A stretch of 33,875 bases of DNA from Chloroflexota bacterium (GTDB lineage: Bacteria; Chloroflexota; Limnocylindria; Limnocylindrales; CSP1-4). The stretch lies in the NCBI GenBank assembly GCA_015478725.1, contig JADMIG010000024.1, forward strand, positions 1 to 33,875, written 5' to 3'. Below, one piece after another: positions 5,611-32,528 of the stretch. Each line of letters starts with the position of its first letter. The stretch's first letter is position 1. The notes under the pieces are model-generated. The model saw only the letters and a list, made by a program, of their open reading frames with translations, ran no database searches and was not told the origin of the DNA. Position numbers and translations under genes: made by a program.

Positions 5611-6906
5611 TCAGATGAGGCGGGCGAAGAGCTCGTTCGAGAGGAGGCGCCCGCGCGTCGTGAGTCGGAGACGCTCGCCGGCCTCGCCCGCCTCCTCGGC
5701 GGCCGCGGCGACTTCGATGAGCTCGGCCGCGAGGGCCCAGCCGGCGATCGCGTCGAGCGGCGGCTCGTGCATCGCCGAGATGGGGATGCCGCGCGATGTC
5801 CGGAGGCCGAGGATGATCCGCTCGCTCGCGGCGGTCGCCGCATCGAGCCGCTCCGCACCGCCGGGCGGAAGCTGCGGCGCTCCATCGGCGGGCCGGAGCG
5901 ACCCGATGTAGCGGTCCAGGCGGGCCGCGTTCCACCGTCGTTCGACGCCATCGAACGCGTGCGCGCCGGGGCCCACGGCCTCGTACGGCCGCCGTTCCCA
6001 GTAGGCGAGGTTGTGCCGGCTCTCGTGGCCCGCTCGGGCCCAGTTGCTGATCTCGTAGCCGTGCCAACCCTGCTCGGCGAGCCTGACCACGGTGTGGTGA
6101 TACATCGCGGCAGCCCGGTCCTCGTCCTGCCAGGGCCGTGCCGCGTCCCGCCAGCGCCGGGCACCGGGACTGGTCACGAGGTGATCGCCGTCCGCACCGG
6201 TCAGGCCCTCGGCGTCGGGATCGTCGAGGGTGAGGGCGTACGCGGAGAGGTGGTCGGGTTCGAGCTCGAGTGCGGCATCGAGCGTGGTCATCCAGGAGAC
6301 GACCGACTGTCCCGGGACGTCGTACAGGAGGTCGAGGTTGACCGACCCGATCCCCGCCGCACGAGCCGTCGCGACCGCGGTCGCGACGTCGCCCGCCCGA
6401 TGGCGACGGCCGAGCCGTCGAAGCTCGGCCTCGTCGAGGCTCTGAGCACCGAACGAGAGGCGCGTGACGCCCGCCGCCCGCTGGGCCGCCGGGTCGCCGC
6501 GGTCGTCCGGACCGGGGTTCGCCTCGAGCGTCACTTCCGCCCCTGCGGCGAGGCCGAAGCGAGCACGGACGAGGTCGACAAGGCCGGCGATCTCGTCGGC
6601 CGCGACGAGGCTCGGGGTCCCGCCGCCGAGATAGAGCGTCGCGAGCGGCGGCCGGGTGGGCGTACCGGGCGGCCCGAAGCGCCCGTCGGCGACGTCGGCC
6701 CGCAGGTCGATCTCCGTCCGGAGCGCGTCGACGAACACCGCGATCCGGTTCCGCGGTCCGCGCGCCGCGGCACCGGCCACGACGACGAAGTCGCAGTACG
6801 GGCAGAGCGAAACGCAGAAGGGGAAGTGGAGATAGAGCGCGACCGGCGGGTCCGCGACCGGGCCCGCGACTGCGTTCGCGGACGGATCGCCGTGGCTGTC
6901 CGCCAT
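5611..6906 (-). CDS. hemW: Radical SAM heme chaperone HemW
   Basis: HemW belongs to the HemN-like radical SAM family and is a heme-binding chaperone; it is often mis-called coproporphyrinogen III oxidase. The 431-residue product has the 4Fe-4S/SAM motif CVSLCPYC near residue 32, the glycine-rich YLGGGTPSL, TLEANPGP, and the HemW-type SRHNLAYW motif, which separates HemW from true HemN. The GPGAHAF motif follows. ATG 6906 overlaps the stop of the upstream CPBP gene by one base (TGATG), suggesting translational coupling. The neighbourhood lepA-hemW-hrcA-grpE-dnaK is widely conserved in bacteria, with the CPBP gene as an insertion. Confidence 0.93.
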   Translation of the reverse strand: MADSHGDPSANAVAGPVADPPVALYLHFPFCVSLCPYCDFVVVAGAAARGPRNRIAVFVDALRTEIDLRADVADGRFGPPGTPTRPPLATLYLGGGTPSLVAADEIAGLVDLVRARFGLAAGAEVTLEANPGPDDRGDPAAQRAAGVTRLSFGAQSLDEAELRRLGRRHRAGDVATAVATARAAGIGSVNLDLLYDVPGQSVVSWMTTLDAALELEPDHLSAYALTLDDPDAEGLTGADGDHLVTSPGARRWRDAARPWQDEDRAAAMYHHTVVRLAEQGWHGYEISNWARAGHESRHNLAYWERRPYEAVGPGAHAFDGVERRWNAARLDRYIGSLRPADGAPQLPPGGAERLDAATAASERIILGLRTSRGIPISAMHEPPLDAIAGWALAAELIEVAAAAEEAGEAGERLRLTTRGRLLSNELFARLI

Positions 6907-26527: not shown

Positions 26528-26960
26528 ATGCGCTAGCTTCGTCGGCTCGCTATCCCGGTACTGGTGGTTGTGCTGGCCGGGTTCGTCTCGACCTGGCAGG
26601 CGGGTTCGTCAGGACTCAGCCGGCCCGGCTATGCGGTCGTCGTGCCCCCGCCGACGATCGGCGCAGCCAGTCGGGTGGACCTCGCCGCTCTGCTGCGGAC
26701 CGGTACCCGCACCCCACCCGCCAGCATCAGCTCCAGGCAGCCAGCCGGGTCGCGCCCCGGCTGGCTGCTTTCGCGGTCACCGGCAACGTCTCCAACACGG
26801 TGTCCACGACGGTCGGCACATCCGCCGACTGGTCGGGCTACGTCGTGGGCACGGGTCCCTATACCAGTGTCACCGGGACCTTCACTGTGCCCAATCTCGC
26901 CGCCACGCCCACGGAGACCCTCACGTCCGAGCGGGTCTGTCACCTGTCCCTTGACAGGCC
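26528..26960 (+). pseudogene. Decayed secreted G1-type (eqolisin-like) peptidase
   Basis: The segment starts ATG-CGC-TAG, so the third codon is a stop. The same frame continues with a signal-peptide-like stretch (LRRLAIPVLVVVLAGFVS). After about 26700 the recognisable protein moves to another frame: NTVSTTVGTSADWSGYVVGT, then a SVTGTFTVPNL segment resembles the start of bacterial G1 peptidases (xWSGYVxxG...VxGxWxVP). TSERV then stands where TSEWVG is expected, after which similarity ends. A nonsense codon, at least one frameshift and 3' truncation mark it as a remnant. It lies at the junction with the AAA/DUF4276 operon and was probably cut by that insertion. Confidence 0.6.
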
Positions 26961-27066: not shown

Positions 27067-27666
27067 TCACGCTTCGATCGAAGGCATCAGCTTTGCAAGC
27101 TCATTCACAAGTTTTCGGAAAGACCGGGAACGCGCGATCGCGGCTTCGACATTAAGGAGCTCCGCAAAGGCGGCCTGATCATCGGTTTCGAGATAGCTTC
27201 GCGCGCCCATCTCGCGATCAAGCCTGCCCTTCGGCGAGGCGATCGAATCCGGGTCTGGTGCGGGCGTGGCGGCTGCTCCGATCCCGCGAAGACCGCGAAG
27301 TCCCTCGATCCCTCCCAGAATCCAGGACTCGAACTCTTGATTCGCTAAGACGACGCCGACCGGCATCCCCCGTCCGACGGCCTGGGCTCTGGCCTGGAGG
27401 CTTGGACCCAGCTCGGCGGGGCAGTCTTCGTCCGCATCGAGAACGATCAATATCGATGCGCACCCTGGCTGAAGCAGCGCCAGCTCGATAGCCTTCTCGA
27501 GCTCATCGGGCTTGACCACTCGCTGCCTCTTCACCCGGATTGCTTTCATGCGTGGATAGAGACCGCGCTCCCGTAGCAGCTTCCGAACAAGAACCGGCAC
27601 GGCCTCCGCATCACCGTGGCCTTCGACGATCGTCACCACTAGGTCAGTCGTGGGCCGGGCGTCCAA
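27067..27666 (-). CDS. DUF4276-type, TOPRIM-like protein
   Basis: A 199-residue protein from TTG 27666. GTG 27639, only 4 bp after the ATPase stop, is an attractive alternative and starts right at the first strand. The pattern VVTIVEGHGDAEAVPVLV, then ILIVLDADEDCPAE, then VVLANQEFESWILGG matches DUF4276: a conserved Glu after the first strand and a DxDxD-like acidic cluster, as in the TOPRIM folds of OLD-family nucleases and primases. In that family these acids bind Mg and support nucleic-acid cleavage; activity here is inferred. The C-terminal third carries RGIGAAATPAP and a basic segment. It is second gene of a two-gene operon, overlapping the AAA gene by 23 bp if TTG is used. Base composition is less GC-rich than in the housekeeping regions. 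Confidence 0.8.
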   Translation of the reverse strand: MDARPTTDLVVTIVEGHGDAEAVPVLVRKLLRERGLYPRMKAIRVKRQRVVKPDELEKAIELALLQPGCASILIVLDADEDCPAELGPSLQARAQAVGRGMPVGVVLANQEFESWILGGIEGLRGLRGIGAAATPAPDPDSIASPKGRLDREMGARSYLETDDQAAFAELLNVEAAIARSRSFRKLVNELAKLMPSIEA

Positions 27667-29545
27667 AGAGATCCAACTCCGCGTTCAAGTGGACACTGGC
27701 CGCCAGGTCTGGATCGAGCGAGTTCGCCCGCAGCAGTTCACCTGCCGAGTAGAGACCGCGCCGGACCGCGGCTCGACTAGCTGCACTTACCGGGCTAATC
27801 GATGTTCGGCCCGCGGTGGCCGTGACCACTCGGATCTGCTCATCAGCGATCTTCGGGCTGTCGAGCAGATCCGGACTGTGTGTCGTGATCAGCACCTGAC
27901 TGCGCTGTTGTCCCTCCAGGAAGGCATCGAGCAGCACATCGAGCGCGCCCGGATGCACCGTCGACTCGGGCTCCTCCACGGCCACGAAGGGGGGCGGAGG
28001 CTGCTGATAGATCGCGAGCAAGAGCCCGAAGACCCGAAGTGTTCCATCGGACATGTTCAGCGGTGGGAACGTCCAAGGGTACTGGGTGCCAATCTGTTGC
28101 CGGAACTGAAGGGTCTCCTTTGACCCAACACGTTCGTACTCCACGGACGTGGTCCCAGGCACCACCTTACCCAGCAGCCGGCAAAGCCGCTCGTAATCCT
28201 CCGTGTTCCGCGCCTTTACTTCTCGCAGCACGGAAGCCGCATTGCTACCGTCCTTCTTCAGGGAGAGGCCCGTGTCCGGGTCCTGAAGCGCTCGAATGTG
28301 GTCCGGCACGAGCGAGTAGAACCTCATGCCGGCGATGAAGTCGTAGACGTCCCGGAACTCCTCGGTGGCTGACAGGACGGTCAGTGCCAACCGATCAGGT
28401 GCAATGCGCGGGCGGACCCCGCTGGGGGCCTCTTTGAACTCGCCTTCTCGCAGGTCGTAAGCGGCGGAGATGACGCCCTCGGTCGCAATGCGGCACGTCT
28501 CCCGCTTAACGACGAAGTCTCCTTGGGAGCGCGCGGCGATCTCGAACGCGTAGCTGGCTATTCGGCGGCCAGTCAGACGCAGGTCGAGCCGGATGCCCAT
28601 GTTCGTTGGGTGCCCGGCCGAACGCCGACGCACTCCGTCGATTCCGCCGCGCACCTGGACGGCTCTGGCCAACGTCGAGGTGACAGAGTCCGTCACGAAT
28701 GACAGACAGTCCACGAAGTTACTCTTGCCCGAGCCGTTCGGACCGACCAGCACGGTCAGCTGGCCGAGGTCCACTACCACCTCATCCAGACTGCGAAAGT
28801 TGCGAGCCTGGATCTGGAGCAAGGTTGGCTTCCGTTGCGATGACGTTTCCCCTGAATCAAGCTGCGATTGAGGGAGCGAGCTGCGGCCGCCATCACTCGG
28901 GGAAGACGATCCCTTCCTCGGTCGATGCTGCCGCGCTGATGTTCGCCGTGACGTTCGCGCATTCGTGACACCGTTGCGGGTCCCTTGGCCAGACACGCTC
29001 GGGCGTCGAATCCTCGGAGAGTGTCTCAGTAGGTCGTCGACCTTGGTCACGTCCGCGAACCGCCGAATCCCGAGGTCGACTTGGCGGCGCCACGGTCCGC
29101 CCTCGATGCCTCCGCCGCCGCCCAGGCCCGGCAACCGCTGGATGATTAGATGGACGCGACGAAGACGGAGGTCGCTCATGCCGAACCTGGCAGCAAGTTC
29201 TTCGCTTCTGATCTCGGCGCCGATACCGGCTTCGAGATAGAGCTGATACGCGAATTGGACGACCGCGAGCGTGTCGGAGAGTTCCTCCGCTTCGCCTGCA
29301 CACAGCGCAATGCCATGCAAGGTGAGGGAGACCTCGCCGTGGGGTCCCCACTGGACCGCGCCGAGCCCCGGATCTAGGTCCTCCCCAACGGCCACGACAT
29401 CGAGCCTATCCTTGGCGCGGTCAAGTTCGAGCTGCAGCTCGGACACGTGCGGCCACACGCCGGTCGCGTGGAATCGATCAAATACCAGCTGGAGGAGGTG
29501 CAGCTCGTCTGCCGTTGGCCTCTTGGATTCGGACGCGGTCGGCAT
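27644..29545 (-). CDS. AAA/ABC-type ATPase (RecF/OLD-like) with N-terminal extension
   Basis: A 633-residue protein. Residues 242-570 form the ATPase: LLQIQARNFRSLDEVVVDLG, Walker A VGPNGSGKSN (267-276), ABC-signature-like MSDGTLR (498-504), Walker B FVAVEEPES (520-528) and H-loop THSPDLLD (555-562). This is the AAA_21/AAA_15 class found in OLD nucleases, PARIS AriA and other defence ATPases. Residues 1-175 are an unusual extension with helical blocks (TADELHLLQLVFDRF, EELAARFGMSDLRLRRVHLI) that look like a winged-helix or HEAT-free helical domain. A Ser/Arg-rich linker (178-240) joins it to the ATPase. No TOPRIM is fused; the next gene supplies one. ATG 29545 lies 6 bp from TAATAT, suggesting a leaderless mRNA. 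The pair is likely a nucleic-acid-directed defence or repair complex. Confidence 0.82.
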   Translation of the reverse strand: MPTASESKRPTADELHLLQLVFDRFHATGVWPHVSELQLELDRAKDRLDVVAVGEDLDPGLGAVQWGPHGEVSLTLHGIALCAGEAEELSDTLAVVQFAYQLYLEAGIGAEIRSEELAARFGMSDLRLRRVHLIIQRLPGLGGGGGIEGGPWRRQVDLGIRRFADVTKVDDLLRHSPRIRRPSVSGQGTRNGVTNARTSRRTSARQHRPRKGSSSPSDGGRSSLPQSQLDSGETSSQRKPTLLQIQARNFRSLDEVVVDLGQLTVLVGPNGSGKSNFVDCLSFVTDSVTSTLARAVQVRGGIDGVRRRSAGHPTNMGIRLDLRLTGRRIASYAFEIAARSQGDFVVKRETCRIATEGVISAAYDLREGEFKEAPSGVRPRIAPDRLALTVLSATEEFRDVYDFIAGMRFYSLVPDHIRALQDPDTGLSLKKDGSNAASVLREVKARNTEDYERLCRLLGKVVPGTTSVEYERVGSKETLQFRQQIGTQYPWTFPPLNMSDGTLRVFGLLLAIYQQPPPPFVAVEEPESTVHPGALDVLLDAFLEGQQRSQVLITTHSPDLLDSPKIADEQIRVVTATAGRTSISPVSAASRAAVRRGLYSAGELLRANSLDPDLAASVHLNAELDLFGRPAHD

Positions 29546-29703: not shown

Positions 29704-31248
29704 CTATGTAGCCAGAAAAGCAGCGACCCACTCTGGGACCACGATTCGAGGTGTGGAACCCGGAGGTTCAAGTCCTCTCGCCCCGACCATAACAACCAAG
29801 CGAGCCCCGTTCCAGGCCGCGGCCCATCCCTGAGCCTGCGCCGACGCGCTCGGATGGAGCTGCACCGTGCGGGTGCCGAGGACGTCGATCCGCTCGAACA
29901 GCGCCTCCGCGAGCTGCTTGCGGCCCGCGCCCTCGGCCTCCTCCCACAGTCGCGCCAGGTCACCGAGGTAGGCGGCCGCCTCGGTCGCGGTCGGGACGTC
30001 GGCGTTCGTCGCCTGCGCCGCGCGCTCGTCGTGGTCGAGCCGCCGCATCGTCGCACTGAGGGCGACCTCGTCGCGGTCGCGCCGATAGCGGGCCAGCGCG
30101 CTGTCGCGGTCGTGCTCGATCCGGGCGAGGGCCACTGGATCGGGTCCCGCCTCGTCGGCCGCGAGACCGGCGACGACAGCGGCGACGAGGCCGGCGTTCG
30201 CGCTCACGTGACCGAGGGCCTGGGCAACGATCCCCTCGAACGCCGCGGCGGGATAGCTCACCCCCTTGTGGCGATGATCGGTCGCGTGGCGGAACGCCCG
30301 CGGTGGTGGTGCCTTCGCGGCGAGCCAGGTCGGGCAGGCGAAGGTGTGGCGGTAGCGGTTCTGCTGGCCGATGATGTGGCGGCCACAGGCGGCGCAGTAC
30401 AACATCGAGAGGGCATACGTCCGCCAGCGGGTCGAGCGCCCCGGATGGCGGCGGGAGAAGCGGCCCCGGGCGAGCGCGACGCGGCCCCACAACCCTGGCT
30501 CGATGACCGGCGGCACCCGGGTCGGGGTGCCATCGCGCAGCTCGCCCTTGTAGAGCGGGTTGGTGAGGATGCCGCGGGCGGTGTAGAAGGGCAGGCCGAC
30601 CTGCTTCGCGACCTGCGCATCGGTGAGCCCCTCCGCCGCGGCGACGAAGCAGGCCCGGACCCGCGCCAGATCGGCGGGGATCGGCTCGAGGAGCGGCGGC
30701 CGTCCCGCGCGGCTGTACCCGAACGGCGGCTGACCACCGGGCTCGCCGAGGCGGCGCCGCTTCGCGGCGAGGCCCTCGCTGATCCGGCGGCCGAGCTTGC
30801 GGCTGTAGGACTCCGCCTCATGGGCCTCGCGGACGAAGTCGTCCCAGCGATCGGCATCGGAGGAGAGGATCCGCTCGTCGGCGAAGAGGACCGCGACCCC
30901 GGCAGCATGGAGCTCATCGACCGCGATGAGGGTCTGCTTGAGGTTGCGCGCGAAGCGACTGACGTAGCCGACGACGAGGATGTCGAAGGACCCTGCCCGG
31001 GCGGCGTCGAGCATCGCCGCGAACTCCGGGCGGAGGTGGACGGTCCGCCCCGAGGCGGCGGTCTGCCAGGCGATCCCGCTGTCAATGAGCCCGTACCGCT
31101 CGATCATCCGGTCGGCCTGTTCCGCCTGGGCCGCGGGTCCCCAGTTGTCGTACTGGCCGGCGGTCGACTCGCGGACCCAGCGGGCGGCCCGCCGGCCGCG
31201 GAGGTCGTCGGGCGAGGCGGGCAGTCGATGGAGCATGGTGGGTGTCAT
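29704..31248 (-). CDS. Large serine recombinase/integrase
   Basis: A 514-residue site-specific recombinase. The resolvase-like catalytic domain (residues 20-155) has RWVRESTAG with nucleophile Ser28, and VSRFARN (96-102) with the conserved arginines. The recombinase domain follows, with GGQPPFGYSRAGRPP and ILTNPLYKGELRDG, then a zinc ribbon (CAAC at 285-288, Cys305) and a coiled-coil motif (about 375-440). The last ~27 residues, VGARGLEPPGSTPRIVVPEW and beyond, are translated from the reverse complement of a tRNA 3' end, so the reading frame runs through the attachment site. It probably integrates an element at a tRNA gene. ATG 31248 or ATG 31236 may be the start. It is divergent from the zinc-finger gene. 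Confidence 0.9.
   Translation of the reverse strand: MTPTMLHRLPASPDDLRGRRAARWVRESTAGQYDNWGPAAQAEQADRMIERYGLIDSGIAWQTAASGRTVHLRPEFAAMLDAARAGSFDILVVGYVSRFARNLKQTLIAVDELHAAGVAVLFADERILSSDADRWDDFVREAHEAESYSRKLGRRISEGLAAKRRRLGEPGGQPPFGYSRAGRPPLLEPIPADLARVRACFVAAAEGLTDAQVAKQVGLPFYTARGILTNPLYKGELRDGTPTRVPPVIEPGLWGRVALARGRFSRRHPGRSTRWRTYALSMLYCAACGRHIIGQQNRYRHTFACPTWLAAKAPPPRAFRHATDHRHKGVSYPAAAFEGIVAQALGHVSANAGLVAAVVAGLAADEAGPDPVALARIEHDRDSALARYRRDRDEVALSATMRRLDHDERAAQATNADVPTATEAAAYLGDLARLWEEAEGAGRKQLAEALFERIDVLGTRTVQLHPSASAQAQGWAAAWNGARLVVMVGARGLEPPGSTPRIVVPEWVAAFLAT
29762..29789 (+). other. tRNA 3'-end fragment, probable att core
   Basis: GGAGG-TTCAAGT-CCTCT forms a T-arm (stem 29762-29766/29774-29778). 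It is followed by a 7-nt acceptor strand CGCCCCG, discriminator A and encoded CCA (29787-29789), the pattern of a tRNA-Pro 3' end. No matching CGGGGCG 5' acceptor strand or D-arm lies about 75 bp upstream, so this is only a 3' fragment. It lies inside the 3' end of the serine recombinase gene, as expected for an attachment site. Confidence 0.6.
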
Positions 31249-31436
31249 ACCTCGCTTCGTCCGATCAGTCCAGCGCCGTCCCGGCGAGGCGCCGGGCGTG
31301 GGCCTGCCGGATGCAGCTCACGAGCGCCCGGACGAGCGGATCGCCGGGACCGAGTCCACCGCCGACGGCGGCCGGGATGGCATCCGGCGCGGGGCCACTG
31401 CGCGGCCGGTGGGGGCGGCTCGATCGATCGCTCGGT
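31249..31436. promoter_or_regulatory. Divergent promoter region, recombinase / zinc-finger gene
   Basis: A 188-bp spacer between the recombinase (leftward) and the zinc-finger gene (rightward). It must hold both promoters. I see no clear -35/-10 pair and no strong dyad apart from CGATCGATCG near 31419-31428. Confidence 0.4.
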
Positions 31437-32528
31437 ATGGTGCTCATGGACGACACGATCGGCGGGCCAGTAGACTTGCGTCGAATTCGTGGAGAACCCG
31501 TGGAAGAGCGACGACCAGCGACCGATGCGGCCCTCGCCACCGGCGGGTGGGTGGTGGGCGAGACCTACGTCGTCCGAGATGCGATCGAGCGGCTCGATCT
31601 CCGCGGCCAGGCCGGGCGCCCGCTGCAGGGTCGAGCGGTCTGGGCCGTCGAGGAGGGCGACGGGCGCCTCGTCTGGCCCGAGCGCGATTGGCGCGGCCAG
31701 TGGGGCGCCATCCGCGATGAGGATCGGACGCTCCGGCCGGGCGAACGGCGGGTGCGGCTCATCGTCGAGGCGAGCCCCGACCCCCGAACCCGGACTCCGA
31801 CGGTGTGGGGACCAGGCGAGCGGGCAGGGCTCGCCGATGAACTCGTCGCCCTCGGCCAGGCGGATGAGGCGGCGATCGTCCGCTGGGTCGAGGCGCATGG
31901 CTTTCTCGGCATCCGGGCCGACCCGCACGAGTGGCACGAGAGCGTGGAGGAGATCCGGGCCGCCCTCGCCGTCCTCGGTCAGGCCCGTTCGCTCGTCGCG
32001 GCGATCCGCACCCTCACGGGTGACCCACTGCGGGCCGAGACCGAGCGGCTCCTGAGCCTGCCCCCGGGCCTGCTCACCGAGGCCCAGGCCGATCACGACC
32101 ACCAACCGCTGGCCGGCCCGCAGCTGGCGCGCGCATTCGGGATCGTGAAGCCGACCGCCGAGGCATGGCCCGGGGCCGGGGCGCACATCCAGGCCCTCTC
32201 TGCCCTGAGCTCGGTGCTCCAGGCGCCGCTCGAACGGTTCCTCCGGGTCCAGACGACGATCGCCCCGACCGGCGATGGGATGCGCCTCCAGGGGGCGATC
32301 GTCGCCGCGGGACCACTGGCGACGGCCTACCTGCGGACGCTCGACGAGGCGAGCTGGCCCGCCATCACGTACGTCGGGTCGCTGCTCCGCGTCAACTGGC
32401 AGACCCCCCGGCCCTGCGGCCGCTGCGGCCGAACGTTCCGGCCCTCTCGGCGGGATCGGAAGTGGTGCAGTGAGCGGTGCCGCTGGGCCGCCTCGAAGGC
32501 ACGCGCCGCCGCCCACCCGCCGGCCTAG
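31437..32528 (+). CDS. Protein with C-terminal C2-C2 zinc finger, function unknown
   Basis: A 363-residue protein. ATG 31437 is used; ATG 31446 is equally possible and GTG 31500 less so. The body has no motif I recognise: an acidic/Trp-containing N-terminal part (GGWVVGETYVVRDAIERLDL, VWPERDWRGQWGAI), then helices including VEEIRAALAVLGQARSLVAA. The C-terminus has CGRCGRTFRPSRRDRKWCSE, then RC: a CX2CX13CX3C zinc-binding site followed by a basic helix, reminiscent of the CGNR/ABATE-type zinc finger but without CGNR itself. CGNR proteins are putative transcription regulators, so a DNA- or RNA-binding role is plausible. It is divergent from the serine recombinase and may belong to the same element. 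Confidence 0.7.
   Translation: MVLMDDTIGGPVDLRRIRGEPVEERRPATDAALATGGWVVGETYVVRDAIERLDLRGQAGRPLQGRAVWAVEEGDGRLVWPERDWRGQWGAIRDEDRTLRPGERRVRLIVEASPDPRTRTPTVWGPGERAGLADELVALGQADEAAIVRWVEAHGFLGIRADPHEWHESVEEIRAALAVLGQARSLVAAIRTLTGDPLRAETERLLSLPPGLLTEAQADHDHQPLAGPQLARAFGIVKPTAEAWPGAGAHIQALSALSSVLQAPLERFLRVQTTIAPTGDGMRLQGAIVAAGPLATAYLRTLDEASWPAITYVGSLLRVNWQTPRPCGRCGRTFRPSRRDRKWCSERCRWAASKARAAAHPPA

Follow-up and report, generated by a model that had tools for sequence, protein, structure and literature searches.

An exchangeable N-terminal module on the ATPase of a candidate HEC-01-type immune operon from a Chloroflexota bacterium

Does a compact operon of an ABC-type ATPase gene and a small DUF4276 gene in a Chloroflexota bacterium represent a new kind of defence against phages, and what is the long N-terminus of its ATPase for? 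The operon lies at 27067-29545 of the window, by which we mean the whole stretch of 33,875 nucleotides analysed here (contig JADMIG010000024.1, assembly GCA_015478725.1, order Limnocylindrales), and an earlier note made from the sequence alone had proposed it as a candidate defence system in the style of PARIS and OLD, distinct from those described. We find that the pair belongs to the catalogued candidate system HEC-01, ordinary for the field in itself but new in its domain architecture. We think it fairly probable, from sequence and by analogy, that the two genes form an immune unit of the HEC-01 type whose ATPase has gained an exchangeable N-terminal input module, and which may act by PARIS-like abortive infection. 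The operon comprises the following features.

27644-29545, minus strand: ATPase open reading frame (633 amino acids), HEC-01A-like with an N-terminal extension (AAA_21, 109 bits against a cut-off of 27; PADLOC PDLC04178, E=1.3e-130, residues 237-624)
29015-29509, minus strand: N-terminal module, residues 13-177, an undescribed domain recognised by its recurrence on other proteins
28832-29011, minus strand: low-complexity linker rich in S, R and P, residues 179-238, read from the sequence; no family match covers it
27674-28831, minus strand: ABC-type ATPase domain, residues 239-624 (Pfam, PADLOC, motifs)
28721-28744, minus strand: Walker A motif GPNGSGKS, residues 268-275
28037-28051, minus strand: ABC signature-like motif SDGTL, residues 499-503
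27965-27979, minus strand: Walker B motif VEEPE, residues 523-527
27869-27886, minus strand: H-switch region motif TTHSPD, residues 554-559
27067-27666, minus strand: DUF4276 protein, HEC-01B-like, with Toprim-like residues E15, D19, D77, D79 and E113 (PF14103, PADLOC)

The ATPase frame opens with an ATG that has an in-frame stop four codons upstream, and the protein is SMC/RecF-like; with Walker A, signature, Walker B and H-switch all intact and a strong AAA_21 match, its first description as an ABC-type ATPase with the key motifs was sound. A search of PADLOC profiles, which the earlier note had suggested, matched the ATPase to HEC-01A (profile positions 4-391 of 399) and the DUF4276 protein to HEC-01B (PDLC04196, E=2.9e-55, profile positions 4-192 of 197), with weaker matches of the ATPase to AriA (2.4e-30), mad3 (2e-29), Old (4e-17) and GajA (2e-16). 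Since both proteins match HEC-01, and do so far above PARIS, Gabija and MADS, the pair belongs to a catalogued candidate system, and the idea that it differs from every described system is not supported. HEC stands for Hma-embedded candidate, and activity against phages has been demonstrated for HEC-05 and HEC-06 (PMC12988326, PMC11411939); in these two papers we found neither a statement on the testing of HEC-01 nor an account of its mechanism. The window pair shares with HEC-01 full profile coverage in both proteins, encoded by adjacent genes on the same strand in the same order, but the matched HEC-01A profiles span 363-464 positions and the best match begins at residue 237, the window ATPase carrying a 236-residue N-terminal addition of domain plus linker. 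It also differs in that no Hma genes were recognised among its immediate neighbours, the PADLOC scan not having covered the window's other genes. Embedding in an Hma cluster is how the HEC-01 family was found, and it is not known to be a requirement for a PADLOC call.

Membership of the better-known systems was rejected in each case. The pair resembles PARIS (AriA and AriB, DUF4435) in having two genes for an ABC ATPase and a Toprim-like effector, and AriA does match the ATPase domain, but that domain is much nearer to HEC-01A and no AriB profile matched the small protein at E<=1. With OLD and the GajA of Gabija it shares an ABC ATPase with Toprim chemistry, to judge from the acidic residues of the DUF4276 protein, which follow the OLD order, but in the window pair the ATPase and the Toprim-like part are encoded by separate genes, not as one polypeptide, and the operon has no GajB-like helicase. 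The mad3 profile of MADS matches the ATPase and mad4, at 0.02, hardly matches the small protein, but the NCBIfam MAD3 score is 117 bits against a cut-off of 420 and no other MADS genes were seen.

What sets the window ATPase apart is its N-terminus, where residues 1-178, overlooked by the earlier note, form a separate conserved domain with a 165-residue core, hereafter the N-module, that other HEC-01 ATPases lack. These first 178 residues match no Pfam family even at E<=10, and NCBIfam holds no model for the N-module. It aligns at 36% identity over 165 residues with the N-terminus of a TIR protein encoded by a second genome of this bacterial family; there a CAP12/Pycsar-type TIR domain and then HEAT-like repeats follow it, and in a third genome it matches the N-terminus of a 361-amino-acid protein with a different, helical-looking C-terminus. 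Profile searches recovered the N-module from 24 of 400 Chloroflexota genomes, and an order-wide search added some more; tblastn with a more central N-module sequence recovered ten Streptomyces-type plasmid records and no phage record, and plasmid and viral-contig searches with the window N-module gave no close relative. A single scan of genome contigs yielded two loci only (L029 and L030), not enough to build a good structure alignment. L042 and L043 (a sigma factor) matched only weakly and were set aside. The N-terminal and ATPase parts of the window gene have equal G+C content at third codon positions (GC3; 0.758 and 0.762), so that the two parts probably arrived already joined in a single gene.

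Architectures, read from reading frames together with Pfam and PADLOC scans, place the N-module in front of CAP12-PCTIR TIR proteins (L029 and L069, and L172 by eye), Hypoth_Ymh HEPN proteins (L031, L032 and L034, the last two also matching PADLOC PD-Lambda-3_B and Argonaute-associated HEPN models), an Abi_C protein (L170) and nucleoside deoxyribosyltransferase-like proteins that match the PADLOC 'TIR effector' model (L035-L037). In L070, L072, L074, L077 and L078 it is joined to an unassigned, helical-looking domain of ~170 residues with a conserved WRQH motif, which occurs in two Chloroflexota families, is always paired with the N-module, has no Pfam match in three scanned members (L072, L074, L077) and is a possible new HEPN-like effector. 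Another unassigned, helical-looking domain follows the N-module in Streptomyces (L045-L047, L049, L050), and the C-terminus of L048 bears a trace of AbiJ_NTD4 (E 0.06); several carriers have no PADLOC match. The robust case is a pair of proteins from Streptomyces plasmids, L047 and L048, which are 67% identical over residues 1-236, comprising domain and linker, and unrelated afterwards, a direct effector swap as read from their sequences. In a tree of 33 module sequences this pair is supported at 100/100, neither the Ymh nor the TIR carriers form a single group, and the Streptomyces helical-domain group is split by well-supported branches; most deep forks are weak, and the window sequence stands beside the TIR protein L029 with support of 89/68, under the usual standard.

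Some carriers have further peculiarities. An HTH_17 domain and a stretch of ~200 residues without an assigned family precede the N-module in L035 and L036, and the annotated gene of L048 (5980-7830; Streptomyces sp. NBC_00184 plasmid NZ_CP108139.1) begins at 6685 and leaves the N-module out, the frame being open from 5980. Class III nucleotide cyclases with a diverged N-module (L038-L041, L061-L068, L071, L073, L075, L076) are found lineage-wide in one Chloroflexota family, and in them a further N-terminal domain of ~150 residues precedes the N-module.

The DUF4276 partner scores 59 bits against PF14103 (cut-off 30.2) and may start either at TTG 27666 (199 amino acids, overlapping the ATPase gene by 23 bases) or at GTG 27639 (190 amino acids), four bases past the ATPase stop, which agrees with the earlier description of a small gene that follows directly by an overlap or a 4-bp gap. 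Seven diverse homologues all keep E15, D77, D79, C82, E113, W115, K146 and Y158, with only D or E at position 19. In class 2 OLD nucleases, two magnesium ions are coordinated by E400, E404, D455, D457, T506 and E508, and the acidic set E15, D/E19, D77xD79 and E113 of the DUF4276 protein has the order and similar spacing of the OLD/RNase M5 ligands E400/E404/D455/D457/E508 (PMC6755086). Residues 6-198 of the predicted model (predicted local distance difference test, pLDDT, 83) align with the C-terminal region 391-594 of OLD (Z 7.8, root-mean-square deviation 4.8, 169 residues), three further OLD entries align at Z 7.1-7.4 (the OLD alignments span 165-169 residues), and arithmetic from the alignment ends, the residues not being superposed, puts E15 at about OLD 400 and E113 near 508. 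The top structural match is PH0156, of unknown function (Z 9.2). Sequence searches of solved structures with the DUF4276 protein gave no credible relative, and the structure comparison contained no AriB or RNase M5 row, an absence from which we conclude nothing. The residue pattern supports a Toprim-like partner, and the predicted fold is compatible with one.

How might such a pair work? In PARIS, a hexameric ABC ATPase holds a Toprim tRNase whose release is triggered by phage proteins (PMC12409363). By analogy with AriA and AriB, we propose that the window ATPase may oligomerise and hold or gate the DUF4276 Toprim-like nuclease, while the N-module, probably winged-helix-like and recurrent on unrelated effectors, would receive an infection signal or position the complex on its target. 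Once activated, the DUF4276 protein would cut nucleic acid (tRNA, other RNA or DNA) through a two-metal Toprim site, and this cleavage would kill or arrest the cell and halt phage growth. At the level of sequence, the intact ATPase motifs, the conserved gene pairing, the conserved Toprim-like acidic residues, the modularity of the N-module and the defence neighbours of relatives speak for the proposal. Of the original suggestion, an ABC-type ATPase paired with a Toprim-like DUF4276 protein as a candidate defence system in the PARIS or OLD style is supported. Several observations weigh against the proposal. The fusion of module and ATPase was seen once in the sampled genomes, and no further defence gene was recognised beside the window pair. 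The predicted model of the N-module is poor (pLDDT 55), which makes its list of Foldseek matches only a hint. Foldseek with the DUF4276 model returned nothing below 1e-3, and a profile comparison of this protein with two GajA proteins gave no signal. Rossmann-like folds unrelated to OLD score equally high against the DUF4276 model, so that fold comparison by itself is not decisive; of the TOPRIM-like small protein first claimed, the conserved acidic residues and a compatible model stand, and a structural match clear of unrelated folds does not. Finally, the tree gathers twelve class III cyclases bearing the N-module into one clade, all from one bacterial family, and for these an immune role is not evident, and the N-module may therefore also serve ordinary signalling.

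If the proposal is correct, the fusion gives HEC-01 a separate handle, an input domain that could be removed or swapped independently of ATPase and nuclease, and the N-module, absent from Pfam and NCBIfam and fronting unrelated immune effectors, would by itself find uncatalogued immune proteins. Going further, we tentatively suggest that the N-module is an exchangeable infection sensor across Chloroflexota and Streptomyces, controlling TIR, HEPN, deoxyribosyltransferase-like and HEC-01 effectors, and that this trigger part is transplantable; what is sensed would then be separated from how the cell responds.

The alternative that survives best, though we consider it rather unlikely, is that the N-module is a DNA-binding autoregulator, as in toxin-antitoxin autoregulation, whose winged helix would hold each effector inactive at its own promoter or on invading DNA, instead of sensing an infection trigger. 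In its favour, the secondary structure of the predicted module runs helix-helix-helix-strand-strand and then helix-strand-helix-helix-strand-strand, which suggests two winged-helix-like halves, residues 86-156 being the better-predicted one (pLDDT mostly 65-87), and the weak Foldseek matches are for the most part to winged-helix proteins, among them transcription factors and the tandem winged-helix proteins MukE and ScpB. None of these matches is significant, however, and the model is of low confidence; winged helices bind proteins too, and the invariant residues of the N-module, W31, P32 and W152, appear structural, unlike a basic recognition helix.

Exchangeable N-terminal domains are not without precedent, and these precedents bear on a further alternative. 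AbiJ-NTD1-5, AbiTii and HEPN/Toprim-NTD1 are non-enzymatic N-terminal domains common to HEPN, TIR, deoxyribosyltransferase and ABC-ATPase proteins, and the N-module is the same kind of thing (PMC3710099), but it has no Pfam match to AbiJ_NTD or AbiTii, either in the window or over the module in relatives, the only AbiJ_NTD4 trace being that in the L048 C-terminus; membership was rejected, and the N-module is by sequence a different domain. Effector-associated domains (EADs) are short domains fused to many effectors, in systems common in actinobacteria and Chloroflexi (PMC7159879). The N-module is likewise short and found on many effectors in Chloroflexota and Streptomyces, a pattern that would fit a homotypic adaptor of the kind used in VMAP/GAP1 conflict systems, in which copies on a core protein recruit effectors with the same domain. 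We think this improbable: EADs need a further copy on a core component of the same genome, most carriers and the window genome have a single copy, and no N-module was seen on a VMAP/STAND/GAP1-like core protein. EAD membership was rejected on this copy number, the comparison having been made without EAD profiles and the single match in the window genome (profiles A1 and A3) coming from an assembly that is 96% complete, in which a missed copy is possible. The exchangeable N-module belongs to the known kind that comprises AbiJ-NTDs, AbiTii and EADs, and matches no Pfam family of that kind.

The ATPase-DUF4276 pairing, which the earlier note had expected to see conserved if real, recurs beyond the window. 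Among the 400 Chloroflexota genomes, 17 match the window protein at E<=1e-20, one of them (G339) by the N-terminal part only, and all seven of the closest ATPase relatives have a DUF4276 frame directly downstream, including one (L005) in which it is degraded and one (G329) whose ATPase gene is split. A HEC-01 pair is also present on a Streptomyces plasmid (L044) and a viral contig (L098); a plasmid search with the window ATPase at E<=1e-20 gave no match. Proximity to defence genes was found as well, with GajA and GajB of Gabija adjoining the L044 pair and the L093 pair following type I restriction and methylation genes. Carriers of the N-module have comparable neighbours: a GajA/GajB pair adjoins an N-module TIR gene (L082), and of two Ymh HEPN genes with the module, one has HmaA upstream of it (L084, E=1.7e-203) and the other has a DNA methyltransferase nearby (L085). 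Since Hma is the system within which HEC candidates first came to notice, two independent lines lead the N-module and the HEC-01 pair to one type of locus.

The ATPase gene of genome G329 lies in two pieces (G329:C242 2081-2839 and 6094-6471; L008, L020), separated between residues matching 485 and 493 by ~3.2 kb of DNA that is possibly a transposon or intron; DUF4276 follows the second piece. Genome G065 has two HEC-01 pairs on different contigs (L095 6241-8540 and L096 3-2195), and the near-identical sequence that follows the first and precedes the second suggests a tandem array or recent duplication broken by assembly.

Is the window pair then part of a mobile island? Three features beside it bear on this question.

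29704-31248, minus strand: serine recombinase with a Resolvase N-terminal domain (Pfam), abutting the operon
29761-29789, plus strand: copy of the tRNA-Pro(CGG) 3' end, 29 nucleotides, 28/29 identical (pattern search), a probable attachment-site scar
26827-26916, plus strand: truncated Peptidase_A4 fragment at the other operon edge (PF01828, 25.2 bits, profile positions 2-33 of 206)

The operon has a G+C content (GC) of 0.62-0.65, about 0.63 overall, and a GC3 of 0.68-0.76, whereas the neighbouring recombinase and transporter genes have 0.73 and 0.88-0.94; the lower GC first reported and the abutting recombinase, now placed in the Resolvase family, were both confirmed. Where the operon was said to interrupt a pseudogene, only the truncated Peptidase_A4 fragment was found, without the remainder of that gene, so that truncation is seen and interruption by the operon is not established. 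Pattern searches for tRNA genes and copies located the genome's tRNA-Pro(CGG) on another contig (G000:C37); the partial copy in the window falls within the terminal (3') part of the recombinase frame, at the edge of the low-GC island, and is probably an attachment-site scar. A search of the genome allowing one mismatch gave no further copy of this tRNA end, which leaves only one island edge marked. Because the recombinase frame runs through the tRNA remnant, the final ~25-30 residues of the recombinase may result from accidental read-through.

This setting counts against reading the pair as a DNA repair or chromosome-maintenance ATPase and nuclease, housekeeping of the Rad50/RecF/OLD-like type, and not immunity. 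The ATPase is SMC/RecF-like, and some OLD-family ATPases are reported to have non-immune roles (PMC12796447), but the patchy spread (17/400 genomes), the GC below that of the chromosome, the nearby recombinase and attachment scar, the defence candidates as nearest profiles and the Gabija and type I restriction genes beside relatives leave it little probability. Least probable is a decaying, non-functional remnant, as might be read from the position of the island, with a truncated peptidase on one side and the tRNA remnant on the other, the degraded DUF4276 of L005 and the split ATPase gene of G329, because both window genes are open at full length with all catalytic motifs intact.

Past the recombinase, a frame of 428 amino acids at 31242-32528 on the plus strand has no significant family match and carries a C-terminal zinc-finger-like motif, CxxC...CxxxC.

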